Of a DNA stretch of 64,000 nucleotides, positions 5,490-57,652 are shown one piece after another. This DNA comes from Marinobacter gelidimuriae (GTDB lineage Bacteria; Pseudomonadota; Gammaproteobacteria; Pseudomonadales; Oleiphilaceae). A program made the translations under genes and the position numbers. The stretch is taken from NCBI RefSeq assembly GCF_000372805.1, contig NZ_KB889908.1, positions 695 to 64,694 of the forward strand. The letters are read 5' to 3'. The notes under the pieces were generated by a model. The model was not told the DNA's origin. It saw only the letters and a program-made list of their open reading frames with translations, and searched no databases. Each line of letters opens with the position of its first letter. The stretch's first letter is position 1.

Positions 5490-6365
5490 ATGGTCGATTT
5501 AAGCATTTTTCTGGACACACCCTGGTTGCTGTACAGCACGGTTGCCTTCGTGTCTTTGTGCATTGGCAGTTTTCTGAACGTGGTTATTTTTCGCCTGCCG
5601 GTGATGATGCAGCAGGAGTGGCGCTGCCAGTGTGAAGAGCTTTTGGAAGTGCCGGATGCCAGGCGGGAACCGGCGAAGGTGCTGAATCTGTCAAAGCCGG
5701 CCTCTACCTGCCCCCACTGCGGCCACGGCATTCGCGCCTGGCAGAATGTTCCGGTTATCAGCTACCTGTTACTGAAAGGCAAATGCGCCCGTTGCAGCGA
5801 ACCGATTTCAGTGCGCTACCCGATTATTGAGCTGGTAACAGCGGCGTTCTCGGTGCTTACCGTGTACCTGCTGGGGCCAACACCTGCGGCGCTTTGGGCG
5901 TTATTGCTGGTGTGGGCGCTGGTAGCGCTGACGATGATTGATTTTGATACTCAACTGCTGCCAGACTCCATCACCCTGCCCTTGCTGTGGTTAGGGCTGA
6001 TTGTGAATTACTTCGGCCAGCTGGTGCCTTTTAACGAAGCATTCTGGGGCGCCGTTGTCGGTTACCTGGCGCTTTGGTCGGTGTACTGGCTGTTCAAGCT
6101 GGTGACCGGCAAGGAAGGCATGGGCTACGGCGATTTCAAGCTGCTGGCAGCGCTGGGCGCCTGGCTGGGTTGGACGTTATTGCCGGCGGTTATTCTGTTG
6201 TCCTCTGTTGTGGGCGCAGCCGTTGGTATAGCCTTGATGGTGTTCAAACAGCAAGGCCGAGAGGTGCCCATTCCCTTCGGGCCTTATTTGGCCACGGCTG
6301 GCTTGCTGTGTTTGTGGTTTGGTGATGAAATTGTGGGTGTATGGTTCGGTTTTCTTGGTGTATAA
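5490..6365 (+). CDS. pilD: Prepilin peptidase / N-methyltransferase PilD
   Basis: Bifunctional inner-membrane aspartyl protease of 291 residues that cleaves type IV prepilin leaders and methylates the new N-terminus. The cytoplasmic methyltransferase loop has the two cysteine pairs CPHCGHG and CARCSEP. The two catalytic aspartates are in MIDFDTQLLPD and in the GMGYGDFKLL motif. About eight hydrophobic segments fit the family. It is the last gene of pilBCD. Its TAA stop falls inside the first unit of a short tandem repeat that runs to the coaE ribosome-binding site. Confidence 0.97.
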   Translation: MVDLSIFLDTPWLLYSTVAFVSLCIGSFLNVVIFRLPVMMQQEWRCQCEELLEVPDARREPAKVLNLSKPASTCPHCGHGIRAWQNVPVISYLLLKGKCARCSEPISVRYPIIELVTAAFSVLTVYLLGPTPAALWALLLVWALVALTMIDFDTQLLPDSITLPLLWLGLIVNYFGQLVPFNEAFWGAVVGYLALWSVYWLFKLVTGKEGMGYGDFKLLAALGAWLGWTLLPAVILLSSVVGAAVGIALMVFKQQGREVPIPFGPYLATAGLLCLWFGDEIVGVWFGFLGV

Positions 6366-6423
6366 ACTTGATGCATAAGCTTGATTTATAAGCTTGGCTA
6401 CATAGCCTTGGTTTCATAAGGAG
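6362..6423 (+). repeat. 13-14-bp tandem array in the pilD-coaE junction
   Basis: Units begin ATAAACTTGATGC, ATAAGCTTGATTT, ATAAGCTTGGCTAC and ATAGCCTTGGTTTC, and the final partial unit ATAAGGAG supplies the Shine-Dalgarno sequence of coaE. The pilD stop codon TAA lies in the first unit. The array fills most of the space between the two genes. Confidence 0.8.
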
Positions 6424-6434
6424 TAGGCGCGCGT

Positions 6435-18107: not shown

Positions 18108-18350
18108 AGATTACCACGGACTGTACATCCATACAGCGTTGTTGGCAAAATTAATACAAACACGGCGCCGCATTCACCCCACACCTAGCTCGGAGTGGGT
18201 ACCCTGCGGCAAACTGGATGGCTACCGGCGACTGGCCAAACAGAAACAGCGAACTGAACCATTGGCCCCAGGCAATGCCATCAATCACGCTGGCAGCCAT
18301 GTGTTTTAATTGTTCTAACACGGTACGTTTTCTCCTGGCCTGTACCACTC

Positions 18351-18414
18351 AAATAGAAGGCCGATCAAATAAAAGGTCAATTAAATGGAAGGTCAGCCAC
18401 ATAAAAGGTCAACC
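18351..18414. repeat. 16-bp tandem array, four units
   Basis: Units AAATAGAAGGCCGATC, AAATAAAAGGTCAATT, AAATGGAAGGTCAGCC and ACATAAAAGGTCAACC are exactly 16 bp each. The array lies just upstream of the ribosome-binding site of the minus-strand gene split by the insertion element. The flanking 90 bp to 18503 are GC-rich and show no gene. Confidence 0.8.
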
Positions 18415-20530: not shown

Positions 20531-20648
20531 GGGGACGGATTTGAGAGAAAGCGGGGACGGAGAGAAAGCGGGGACGAGAGCGGGGACGGATTTGAAATCC
20601 GTCCCCTATCTTCACCGCCAACCGGGGACAGACTTGAAGTCTGTCCCC
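20531..20648. repeat. Palindromic repeat cluster 1 (two full copies plus half copies)
   Basis: Full 25-bp palindromes of the GGGGACRGAYTT type lie at 20582-20606 (CGG/CCG variant) and 20624-20648 (CAG/CTG variant with compensating changes). Half-site starts GGGGACGGA or GGGGACGAG are at 20531, 20553 and 20570. Cluster sits between convergent phrB and moeB. The last base of the second copy is the G of the moeB TAG stop. Confidence 0.92.
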
Positions 20649-21397: not shown

Positions 21398-21417
21398 GGT
21401 GGGCTCCGTTGGCAGAT

Positions 21418-21516
21418 CGGGGACAGATCGGGGACAGATTTGAAATCTGTCCCCTTGAGTGGGATTTCCAGGCAGACCGAGGACAGAAAGCGGGGACGGA
21501 TTTGAAATCCGTCCCC
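21418..21516. repeat. Palindromic repeat cluster 2 (two full copies plus half copy)
   Basis: Full copies are at 21430-21454 (GGGGACAGATTT arms) and 21492-21516 (GGGGACGGATTT arms), with a half copy at 21418. They occupy the prmC-moeB gap. The 21516 base is the last G of the prmC TAG stop read on the minus strand. Confidence 0.92.
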
Positions 21517-27486: not shown

Positions 27487-27490
27487 CGCT

Positions 27491-27562
27491 GACGGCAGCT
27501 CTCGATGCAAGTTTCAAGGCAACTCTCAAAGCAACTCTGACAGAAACTATGACGGCAACAAT
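27491..27562 (+). repeat. 12-bp tandem array in the lolB-ispE junction
   Basis: Six diverged units near GACGGCAACTCT run head to tail: GACGGCAGCTCT, CGATGCAAGTTT, CAAGGCAACTCT, CAAAGCAACTCT, GACAGAAACTAT, GACGGCAACAAT. The array starts four bases after the lolB stop and ends just before the likely ispE start, and it creates a spurious ATG at 27549. Confidence 0.75.
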
Positions 27563-54432: not shown

Positions 54433-54536
54433 GACAACCCTGCCGCACTGCCCGCTTCGCCGCCAAATAAACGACTCTGTGGTTGAGCGGCAACTGAGCC
54501 AACCAGATCGTGAGTGGAATGAACAGTTAGACGTAC

Positions 54537-54788
54537 TTAATGCTCGGCTGTTTCTTGCTGGCGTACAAAAGTGGAAAATTCGTCATAGCCGCCAATGTGC
54601 TGCTCACCCACGAAGATCTGCGGCACGGTATATACAGGCTTGCCGATTTTCTGTGCAATATCCGCTTTAGTAATGTCTTCCTCAATCATGTCTACCCATT
54701 TAAACTCGAAATCACGAGCTTCGCACAGACGAATGGCCCCTACGCAGAAACCGCAACTGGTACGACCAAAAATTGTGACTTTTCCCAT
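54537..54788 (-). CDS. GrxA-like glutaredoxin with a CGFC active site
   Basis: Glutaredoxin of 83 residues. VTIFGRTSCGFCVGAIRLCEARDFEF and KPVYTVPQIFVGEQHIGGYDEF closely follow E. coli GrxA, but the active site is Cys-Gly-Phe-Cys instead of Cys-Pro-Tyr-Cys. The cis-Pro (TVPQ) and GG glutathione loop are intact. It probably reduces protein disulfides or glutathione mixed disulfides; the CGF portion recalls the Fe-S-binding CGFS class. Upstream leader has diverged CAAGC repeats (54789-54852). Confidence 0.9.
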   Translation of the reverse strand: MGKVTIFGRTSCGFCVGAIRLCEARDFEFKWVDMIEEDITKADIAQKIGKPVYTVPQIFVGEQHIGGYDEFSTFVRQQETAEH

Positions 54789-54991: not shown

Positions 54992-55459
54992 GTGGTATAC
55001 CTGACCCTGTTCGCCACCGCTTTTGCCGCTGCTACGCTGCTACCGGCGTATTCGGAAATCCTGCTGGGCACCCTGCTGGCCAAGGGCTATGGGCCATTCT
55101 GGTTGTGGTTTGCGGCCACAACCGGCAATACGCTGGGGTCTGTGGTGAACGGAATTATCGGACGCCAGGTAGATCGATTCAAGCACAAACGCTGGTTTCC
55201 GATGACCGAAGTGCAGCTGCACAATGCCCGCAACCGCTTTAACCGCTTTGGCCAATGGTCGTTACTGCTGGGCTGGTTACCGATTGGCGGCGACGCGCTT
55301 ACCCTGGTAGGCGGTATTATGCGCGTGCCTTGGCTGAACTTTGTGATTCTGGTTGGCATCGGCAAGGGCCTGCGCTATGCCATTGTGTTGTGGCTGGTAC
55401 TCAGTGCCTACGGCCCCGAAACCGAGGCGCTGGTGTCGGGTTTAGTGTTCTCAGGGTAA
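54992..55459 (+). CDS. YqaA/DedA-like small membrane protein
   Basis: Membrane protein of 155 residues with about four hydrophobic segments and a central basic loop (RQVDRFKHKRWFP). It matches the YqaA group of the DedA/VTT superfamily (AAATLLPAYSEILLG, GNTLGSVVNGIIGR, GWLPIGGDALTLVGGIMRVPW). Function unknown; the superfamily includes lipid flippases. GTG start at 54992 with GGAG five bases upstream. Its 3' end overlaps the convergent kinase gene by 52 bases. Confidence 0.85.
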   Translation: MVYLTLFATAFAAATLLPAYSEILLGTLLAKGYGPFWLWFAATTGNTLGSVVNGIIGRQVDRFKHKRWFPMTEVQLHNARNRFNRFGQWSLLLGWLPIGGDALTLVGGIMRVPWLNFVILVGIGKGLRYAIVLWLVLSAYGPETEALVSGLVFSG

Positions 55460-56844
55460 AGATAGCGCCGTAGCATTGGCTCGCCGTTGAATTCCGCCTG
55501 CAAAACGGCAATAAACGTGTAAACCCCGATCAACTTGCGGTTCAGAAACACGAACTCTTTTGGTGGCACGCGAAAGTAGCGACTAATAGCAGAACGAGCG
55601 GCCTGCCGTGCTACCCGTGAAGGCAGGTCGCTTTGTTTCCAGCGATACTGGCCGGCGCTGTTCACAGCCTCGGGTGGCCATTCGCTAGGGTCGCCAATCA
55701 ACGGCTCCAACACTGACATACATACCCGGCCAAAGATTTCCAGCACCTCAGTGGGCCAGTCACGGCTCATAAACCGGAGTTGCACGCCGCCATCGATCAC
55801 AGCACCCAGATCGTTTTCATAGGAGGCACGAATCATTTGGATAACCGGCTGTAGAAAGTCATCGCTGTAGCGCTGCACCGCGCCAAAATCCAGCAGCACG
55901 ATACGATCGTGGTCTGCTTCTGCGCCCGACTCTCCGGCCAAGCGAATGCGATAGTTGCCAAAGTTCGGGTCGGTCTGAATTTCACCCCAATCAAACAACT
56001 CGCGAAAGAACAGCTCCAGCGCGGCCTTACCCAGCTCACTGCGGCGCTCCAACGACATGCCGGCAACCGTGGGCGAGTTAACAGAGTGCCCGCGCTCATA
56101 AGTGGAGGCAATCACTTGGGCACTGGAGTATTCCGGCAGTACCCGCGGCACAATGAAACGCGGATCGTCTAGCAGCATTTGACGAAAACGCTCGGTGGTG
56201 TGGGCTTCCAGGCGGTAATCCACCTCGCGGTGCATCATTACCCGCACTTCTTCCAGCCAGTCGTCGAATTCAGGGCCAAAATTGACTAAGCGGGCCATTT
56301 TTAGCAGCTTGGCAACGGCGTTTAGATCGCTGTCGACCGCATCGCCCACATCGGGGTACTGCACTTTCAGCACCAGTTCAAGGCCATCACTCAAGCGCCG
56401 GGCGCGGTGAACCTGGCCCAGTGAAGCGGCGCCAATAGGCTGAGGTTCAATTTCCAGCTGCGCCAGGCGCTCCCTGCCCAATTCCGATTGCAACACGCGC
56501 TCGATGGCCGGCCACGCCAAAGACGTGGTCTGGTCTTCCAGAGTATGCAGGGCTTCGGTCACTTCATCGGGTAGAAAATGTTCGCCGTACAAGGCCATCA
56601 CCTGGCCAATCTTGACCACGCTGCCTTTTAGCTGGCCCAGCTCGTCTACCAGAAAGCGGGCCTGGGTAGACAGCATGGCCTTGTGACGCTGTTCGCGGCG
56701 TTCCTTCCCACCCAGCCAATTGGTCGCCATGTGGGAAGCCATGCGGGTGCCGGCAAACAGGCCGGCACGGGTGAGGCTAAGCCTGCGTTCGAAGCTGCCG
56801 GTTTTTATGCGTGAGACAGAGTTGTCTGATCCCTTTTTTGCCAT
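55408..56844 (-). CDS. ABC1/UbiB-family atypical kinase
   Basis: 478 residues. Family signatures are KGSVVKIGQVMALYG (KxGQ motif, KxxQ), PIGAASLGQVHRARRLSDGLELVLKVQYP with the alanine-rich nucleotide loop, and the catalytic DPNFGNYRI and LLDFGAVQRY motifs. Members such as UbiB support ubiquinone synthesis through small-molecule extraction from membranes. No C-terminal transmembrane pair as in UbiB, so this is a paralogue. A degenerate tandem array of Shine-Dalgarno-like units lies in front of the start. Confidence 0.9.
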   Translation of the reverse strand: MAKKGSDNSVSRIKTGSFERRLSLTRAGLFAGTRMASHMATNWLGGKERREQRHKAMLSTQARFLVDELGQLKGSVVKIGQVMALYGEHFLPDEVTEALHTLEDQTTSLAWPAIERVLQSELGRERLAQLEIEPQPIGAASLGQVHRARRLSDGLELVLKVQYPDVGDAVDSDLNAVAKLLKMARLVNFGPEFDDWLEEVRVMMHREVDYRLEAHTTERFRQMLLDDPRFIVPRVLPEYSSAQVIASTYERGHSVNSPTVAGMSLERRSELGKAALELFFRELFDWGEIQTDPNFGNYRIRLAGESGAEADHDRIVLLDFGAVQRYSDDFLQPVIQMIRASYENDLGAVIDGGVQLRFMSRDWPTEVLEIFGRVCMSVLEPLIGDPSEWPPEAVNSAGQYRWKQSDLPSRVARQAARSAISRYFRVPPKEFVFLNRKLIGVYTFIAVLQAEFNGEPMLRRYLYPENTKPDTSASVSGP

Positions 56845-56961
56845 AAATACTCTCCAACTCTAAATGCTCTCCAGCCCTAAATCTCTCCAGCTTAAATACT
56901 CTTTCACTTAGATATTCACTCACTCAAGTGCTCTCTAACGTAAATATTTACTGATTCAAAT
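56845..56961 (-). repeat. 15-17-bp tandem array upstream of the ABC1 kinase, seven units
   Basis: Read on the plus strand, units begin AAATACTCTCCAACTCT, AAATGCTCTCCAGCCCT, AAATCTCTCCAGCTT, AAATACTCTTTCACTT, AGATATTCACTCACTC, AAGTGCTCTCTAACGT and AAATATTTACTGATTC. On the coding strand the nearest units each carry GGAGAG followed by four to six bases, and the unit next to the ATG gives the natural ribosome-binding site. The array fills the gap to lipB. Confidence 0.85.
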
Positions 56962-56998
56962 GTTTTTTAGCCTGCCACTGTCTCATCTCGGCGCAGAT

Positions 56999-57652
56999 TC
57001 ACCAGCCCTGCTGCCAGCTTACCGAGCCCTCGCCTGTCAAGCTATGGCCCAAGGCGGCAACCAGTTGTTCGGCAAGCTGCTGCTCTATCTGTGCAAATGT
57101 GGCGTGCTGCGCAAAGTCCTGAACCTGGCACATGGCCATACCGGCATAGCCGCACGGGTTGATTCGCGCGAAGGGTTCCATATCCATGGCAACATTCAGC
57201 GCCAGGCCGTGGAATGAGCAACCGCGGCGTACACGCAAACCCAGCGACGCGATTTTCGCGCCATCCACATAAACCCCCGGCGCATCGGCCCGCGGCGCGG
57301 CGCTGATACCCAAAGGTGCAAGAGTGTTTACGATGGACTGTTCAATATGGCTGACCAACGCGCGAATACCCAAGGCACTGCGAGTCAGGTCAATCAGCAG
57401 ATAAATGACCAATTGGCCGGGGCCGTGGTAGGTCACCTGACCACCCCGGTCTACCTGAACCACCGGTATATCACCGGGCGCCAGAATATGCTCGGCCTTA
57501 CCGGCCTGCCCCTGGGTATAAACCGGCGAGTGCTGCAGGCACCAGAGCTCGTCAGCGCTGTTTTTGTCGCGGCTGGCGGTAAATGCCTGCATGGCATGCC
57601 AGGTTTCCAGGTAGGGCTGCTCGCCCAATGAGCGCACAATCAGTTGGCTCAC
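56999..57652 (-). CDS. lipB: Octanoyl-[ACP]:protein N-octanoyltransferase
   Basis: 217 residues. Moves octanoyl groups from ACP to lipoyl domains, before LipA. Motifs [43 protein letters not shown] (catalytic Lys) and [14 protein letters not shown] (catalytic Cys) are intact. GTG start at 57652, two bases after the ybeD stop. lipA is not downstream but at 36 kb. Confidence 0.96.

Follow-up and report, generated by a model that had tools for sequence, protein, structure and literature searches.

The leader of an ABC1/UbiB-family kinase gene in a 3.63-Mb Marinobacter genome (G000) holds seven degenerate tandem units, which probably represent a decaying minisatellite, that is, a by-product of tandem duplication in which the duplicated unit happened to include the ribosome-binding site. 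Arrays of this kind are known, and this one is ordinary; we consider, with moderate confidence, that a wider excess of intergenic arrays in part of the lineage carrying it is the more interesting lead. The window hereafter means the whole stretch of this genome that was analyzed, 64,000 nt in length.

A Degenerate Tandem Array Between lipB and the Kinase Gene

The array lies inside the 154-nt gap that separates lipB from the kinase gene on the minus strand. The kinase scored 130 bits against the NCBIfam UbiB equivalog, far under the cut-off of 488 bits, so that the designation "ABC1/UbiB-family" is fair and plain "UbiB" is unwarranted. Its closest named relative among the matches listed was that of strain ELB17, with 95% identity. 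The features of the locus are as follows.

55408..56844, minus strand: ABC1/UbiB-family kinase gene, 478 aa, ATG at 56844, Pfam ABC1
56848..56864, minus strand: unit 7, TTTAGAGTTGGAGAGTA; holds the kinase's own ribosome-binding site
56852..56855, minus strand: GGAG Shine-Dalgarno core, 7 nt before the ATG; identical in the five genomes with this leader
56865..56881, minus strand: unit 6, TTTAGGGCTGGAGAGCA; a 17-nt block across units 6 and 7 is absent in G004
56882..56896, minus strand: unit 5, TTTAAGCTGGAGAGA; GGAG altered in ELB17, G026, and G146
56897..56912, minus strand: unit 4, TCTAAGTGAAAGAGTA
56913..56928, minus strand: unit 3, CTTGAGTGAGTGAATA; units 3 and 4 resemble units 1 and 2, as in a 32-nt dimer step
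56929..56944, minus strand: unit 2, TTTACGTTAGAGAGCA; a 16-nt block here is absent in G004
56945..56960, minus strand: unit 1, TTTGAATCAGTAAATA; furthest from the consensus
56999..57652, minus strand: lipB (octanoyltransferase), the same-strand gene upstream of the kinase

Delimited by hand, the seven head-to-tail units occupy 56848-56960 and measure 16, 16, 16, 16, 15, 17, and 17 nt from unit 1 to unit 7, after which TTT leads to the kinase ATG. TRF on the whole window reported 56844-56946 with period 16 and score 58, and the gene-proximal part, 56844-56902, with period 17 and score 83. When the gap was analyzed alone, the TRF score was 81, a value that no dinucleotide shuffle attained (5000 shuffles, highest score 76). 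The self-match of the gap had maxima at lags 16, 32, and 48, the value at lag 16 being 0.54 against 0.29 expected (z 5.6). The peak at lag 32 was equally high (0.54) because units 1-2 are similar to units 3-4, which suggests that one duplication step copied a 32-nt dimer. Thus, a unit in the 10-60-nt range of minisatellites is repeated head to tail beyond chance.

An earlier note had described a seven-unit array, the longest and most regular of its kind in the window. The seven units are real, and the array is both the longest and the top-scoring entry in the TRF list of the window, where the runner-up at 18349-18412 scored 65 (period 16) and 82 (period 32). "Most regular" was generous, since TRF matches within the array are 67-84%. 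The runner-up contains four copies of a 16-nt unit, and about six are found at the same place in ELB17. We also considered the kinase-leader unit as a dispersed element. This was rejected, as the only two exact matches to TGGAGAGNATTTA in the genome are both inside the array; with one mismatch allowed, seven further single sites were found, compared with two for the control.

Evolution of the Leader Among Relatives

Searching 124 Marinobacter genomes with the leader DNA returned a match in five (G000, ELB17, G026, G146, and G004), which group together as a single clade of the kinase tree with a support of 1.0. Four of them have seven units and G004 has five, and the alignment resolved this difference into one 16-nt and one 17-nt block, i.e., a whole-unit copy-number change between related genomes, as is typical of minisatellites. 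The outgroup comprised 79 named loci, mostly from Marinobacter (the best 80 of 295 relatives less ELB17), and none of these had an array with a TRF score of at least 40 in the 200 nt upstream of the kinase gene. The suggestion that the array is a by-product of slippage therefore gained ground from the unit-sized copy differences between sister species and from the array-free leaders of the outgroup loci, as well as from the numerous arrays of unrelated sequence that these genomes contain, described below. One gap elsewhere in the window, 54433-54539, is about 1290 nt longer in all four lineage relatives, which implies that a gene-sized segment that would separate a phosphofructokinase-like gene (named by eye) from a glutaredoxin gene is missing in the window genome.

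In the comparison of leaders that the earlier note had asked for, the final Shine-Dalgarno sequence, spacer, and start codon (GGAG-N7-ATG) are identical in all five genomes. The upstream GGAG copies are not kept: that of unit 5 is changed to GGAA in ELB17 and G026 and to CGAG in G146, and that of unit 6 is rearranged in G146. Substitution across the array as a whole was low among G000, ELB17, and G026, at 1.7-5.1% compared with 10-22% for fourfold sites in lipB and the kinase gene; only 2 of 118 positions differ between G000 and ELB17. Taken by itself, this could hint at constraint. The lipB and kinase distances contradict each other across genome pairs, so DNA exchange between species may be an alternative explanation. 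Furthermore, the leader diverged from G130, G026, G146, and G004 by 2.6, 4.6, 11.1, and 15.8%, against 5.2, 6.9, 6.9, and 6.2% for the pooled other gaps of the window, of which 21, 18, 23, and 4 of 29 were comparable with the respective genomes (for the rest, no ortholog was found or too little was aligned). Since the leader is thus less diverged than the pooled gaps in two of these comparisons and more diverged in the other two, no special constraint is visible, and the low value relative to fourfold sites is not distinctive. Array-specific conservation, promising between G000 and ELB17, was consequently rejected as being within the spread of the other gaps of the window.

Intergenic Arrays Across the Lineage

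Arrays with a period of 9-30 nt and a TRF score of at least 40 were counted, a gap being any stretch of at most 600 nt that separates simple ORF calls. The results showed 73 gap arrays in 138.3 kb from the five lineage genomes versus 16 in 100.0 kb from seven other Marinobacter (binomial P 2.4e-6), which is approximately a threefold difference in density. Outside gaps, mostly within genes, the two sets were alike, with 119 arrays in 1368.5 kb versus 81 in 1018.5 kb (0.87 versus 0.80 per 10 kb). Leaving out the window and its syntenic stretches, which represent the same loci again, 51 arrays in 1200 kb sampled remained against 11 in 800 kb (P 2.3e-4); both P values are optimistic, because gene calls were crude, the stretches were not random, and the related genomes are not independent. 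Per genome, the counts outside the region of the window were 18 in 400 kb for G000 and, in 200 kb each, 17 for ELB17, 10 for G004, 4 for G026, and 2 for G146. G026 and G146 come close to the outgroup density, which leaves three of the five genomes with a clear excess. Base composition does not explain it, since shuffled gaps yielded far fewer arrays: 56 arrays lie wholly in gaps in the lineage versus 3.1 from shuffles, and 13 versus 1.8 in the others. Twelve sister-group loci, all from one genomic neighborhood, had no array in 12.7 kb of gaps, where 0.5 was expected from shuffles.

Loss of a slippage-limiting nuclease was considered as the cause of the arrays and, for ExoI and RecJ, rejected. 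ExoI (PF08411) is present in all nine genomes examined. RecJ (TIGR00644) also had a match in the nine genomes, over the cut-off in eight, and is whole in the five lineage genomes. Two outgroup assemblies, G036 (C1:1881956-1883597) and G055 (C1:1981565-1983207), have recJ broken up into several frames, possibly through sequencing errors.

Several other repeats were observed beside genes. A gene resembling ispE (named by eye) has a 12-nt array in its leader at 27494-27548 of the window. Compared over 27487-27548, this leader has gained 24, 24, and 48 nt in G130, G026, and G146 relative to the window, all whole multiples of 12. A 13-nt array, CTTGATGTATAAG, at 6354-6434 is located directly before the Shine-Dalgarno sequence of a gene resembling coaE (named by eye), with a diverged version in G026 (L166 12730-12768). 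In G000 (C1), the last copy of a 15-nt array (L146:18139-18194) adjoins the ATG of a lepB-like gene (by eye); its units contain AGGC(A/G)(T/C)CTGA, the last being followed by ATG, which makes it a second start-abutting repeat with a different unit. Finally, GGGGAC repeats occur beside the palindrome-like GGATTTGAAATCC at 20543-20620 and 21413-21470, with similar pieces in ELB17; these presumably resemble REP-type elements.

Shine-Dalgarno Content and Predicted Structure of the Leader

It had been proposed that the units near the gene each hold GGAGAG and that such stacked elements could act as standby sites. In such a device, 30S subunits would be retained close to the start codon by the upstream units, and initiation at the kinase gene would rise. 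The first part of the proposal applies to the three gene-proximal units of the seven; unit 2 has AGAGAG, unit 4 has AAAGAG, and both motifs are lacking in units 1 and 3. The kinase's Shine-Dalgarno sequence is the GGAG of the gene-proximal unit, followed by 7 nt and the ATG. After units 1-6, the codons at the equivalent place are ACG, GAG, AAG, AAG, AGG, and AGA, none of the six being a usual start codon. In G000, three sites are predicted to pair with the anti-Shine-Dalgarno sequence at -6.4 to -6.8 kcal/mol, their GGA being 16 and 17 nt apart, an arrangement that would suit standby binding. The exact 16S tail GGATCACCTCCTTA, which holds the canonical anti-Shine-Dalgarno sequence, is present in four of the five lineage genomes, which likewise favors such pairing; an exact search did not find it in the draft assembly of the window genome, so the anti-Shine-Dalgarno sequence is assumed for G000.

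The remaining evidence makes a standby role improbable. Only one to three strong sites (predicted at -6 kcal/mol or below) are found per species: besides the three in G000, there are two in ELB17, G026, and G004, and one in G146. Standby binding calls for a single-stranded region where the ribosome can land ahead of a structured start site, and the predicted folds of the leader show no such arrangement. The predicted mean unpaired probability of the array is 0.35-0.41, i.e., mostly paired and slightly more open than the start region, for which the prediction is 0.21-0.36 with the whole leader versus 0.25-0.28 with the last 40 nt alone. Removal of the array would shift start accessibility by 0.10 at most, in both directions and furthest in G026 (0.10). 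According to these predictions, the array is neither an open landing pad nor a clear relief of structure at the start. The loss of upstream GGAG in some relatives, next to an invariant last GGAG, also speaks against the proposal. A search of Rfam with 56700-57200 gave nothing relevant and no match at the gathering score; the one sub-threshold miRNA match (19.7 bits versus 85) lies on the opposite strand inside the kinase gene.

Nor do the arrays of the lineage behave as ribosome-binding devices when taken as a set. Their coding-strand units pair with the anti-Shine-Dalgarno sequence at -1.99, compared with -2.17 for shuffled units (P 0.55) and -1.00 for the other strand (P 0.16). Same-strand gaps contain 45 arrays, of which the 34 usable ones have a mean relative position of 0.50 (KS P 0.10), so that there is no significant bias toward the start side, and convergent gaps are as dense in arrays as same-strand gaps (5.79 versus 5.65 per 10 kb). 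The upstream stop codon is overlapped by 12 of the 45 and the start codon is touched or overlapped by 10, four of which are copies of the kinase-leader array, start calls being rough. Coding-strand units at -6 or below were found only in four of the five orthologous kinase-leader copies; as the sole strongly Shine-Dalgarno-like array of the 45, the kinase-leader array is therefore not typical. A stacked Shine-Dalgarno sequence as a genus-wide device was rejected too. The pattern of three GGAG 15-17 nt apart, the last 7 nt before an ATG, had 17 matches in 16 of the 124 Marinobacter genomes, the reversed control had 8 in the same 124, and by eye only the match in the window is clearly a repeat. 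A looser RGAG pattern gave three matches in the genome of the window and none for the control.

Control at the DNA level, with the repeats serving as direct-repeat operator or promoter elements in place of the promoter of other Marinobacter, is likewise very unlikely, although the leaders do differ in this respect. TATAAT was detected within 150 nt of the kinase start, at a median of 57 nt before it, in 65 of the 79 outgroup loci, often inside ATCCGTATAATG (loci L035-L113), whereas none of the five array leaders contains it; with one mismatch allowed, only G146 has a candidate (TAAAAT). The lineage would thus have replaced a promoter-bearing leader. However, the scan of 56600-57300 gave no promoter-like match at its threshold, with 0.3 expected. 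In addition, similarity between pairs of units is as low as about 0.44-0.5, their sequences change from species to species, and the period of 16-17 nt corresponds to a non-integer number of helical turns.

CsrA/RsmA proteins recognize ANGGA motifs that cover the Shine-Dalgarno sequence, preferably within hairpin loops. Repression of this type through repeated GGA, the last one over the Shine-Dalgarno sequence, would fit the three GGA spaced 16-17 nt apart in three of the five species, but it is highly improbable: ANGGA is absent from all five leaders, G146 and G004 have two GGA only, and the fold of the leader with the gene start does not surpass that of shuffles, of which 129 of 200 were as good (z 0.37). 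A leader peptide from a GTG at -79, overlapping the kinase start and coupling translation, was already disfavored and can practically be dismissed, since its frame, which runs for at least 46 codons without a stop in G000, ELB17, and G026, closes in G146 after 20 codons and is missing from G004.

Discussion

We propose that the kinase leader was lengthened by repeated duplication in one Marinobacter lineage. An AT-rich segment of about 16 nt, already carrying the ribosome-binding site as GGAG and an AT-rich spacer, would have been duplicated in the ancestor of the five species. The outcome of duplication is observed directly, and out-of-register replication slippage is its presumable mechanism. 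Further single-unit steps, apparently with a dimer step among them, and losses are shown by the unit-sized differences that are seen today. Its position and invariance suggest that the copy beside the ATG serves initiation as the Shine-Dalgarno sequence. The upstream copies would be passive leftovers, in which substitutions build up and whose number rises or falls by whole units; judging from their decay, they most likely have no function.

The array resembles bacterial intergenic minisatellites (VNTRs) in its 15-17-nt head-to-tail units, its unit-sized copy differences, its non-coding location, and a period that is not a multiple of 3. Unlike in hypervariable VNTRs, its copies are strongly diverged from each other, which points to an old locus that is unlikely to be hypervariable at present. 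A present-day phase-variable contingency locus is therefore unlikely from the sequences of one genome per species. The tandem repeats of archaeal Borg elements (PMC9879509) are similar in that many unrelated short arrays, intergenic ones included, occur with genome-specific abundance and with unit numbers that differ between relatives. Borg units are perfect and A-rich, and about half are within genes, whereas the Marinobacter arrays are degenerate and in excess between genes only. With ribosome standby sites in structured 5′ leaders (PMC3936740), the array shares upstream sequence that could contact the 30S subunit; it differs from them in that an open landing pad is not predicted, start accessibility would change little according to the predictions, and the upstream GGAG is not conserved. 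Neither the kinase-leader array nor the array excess of the lineage was described among the matches listed, within the titles and abstract openings of open-licence literature.

On its own, the array matters little, being a ribosome-binding site caught within decaying tandem repeats. It does carry a warning that stacked Shine-Dalgarno-like motifs can come from duplication without selection. More tentatively, and with considerable doubt on our part, one Marinobacter lineage may form or keep intergenic short tandem duplications several times more often than its relatives do, so that leaders are rebuilt; here, the array would have displaced a conserved promoter-bearing leader, and its last copy would supply the ribosome-binding site of the kinase. 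The array-rich lineage offers a place to test the cause of such duplications, mutation rate versus weak selection on spacers. If the proposal is true, the kinase leader would be one case of lineage-specific duplication supplying raw material for new expression signals.
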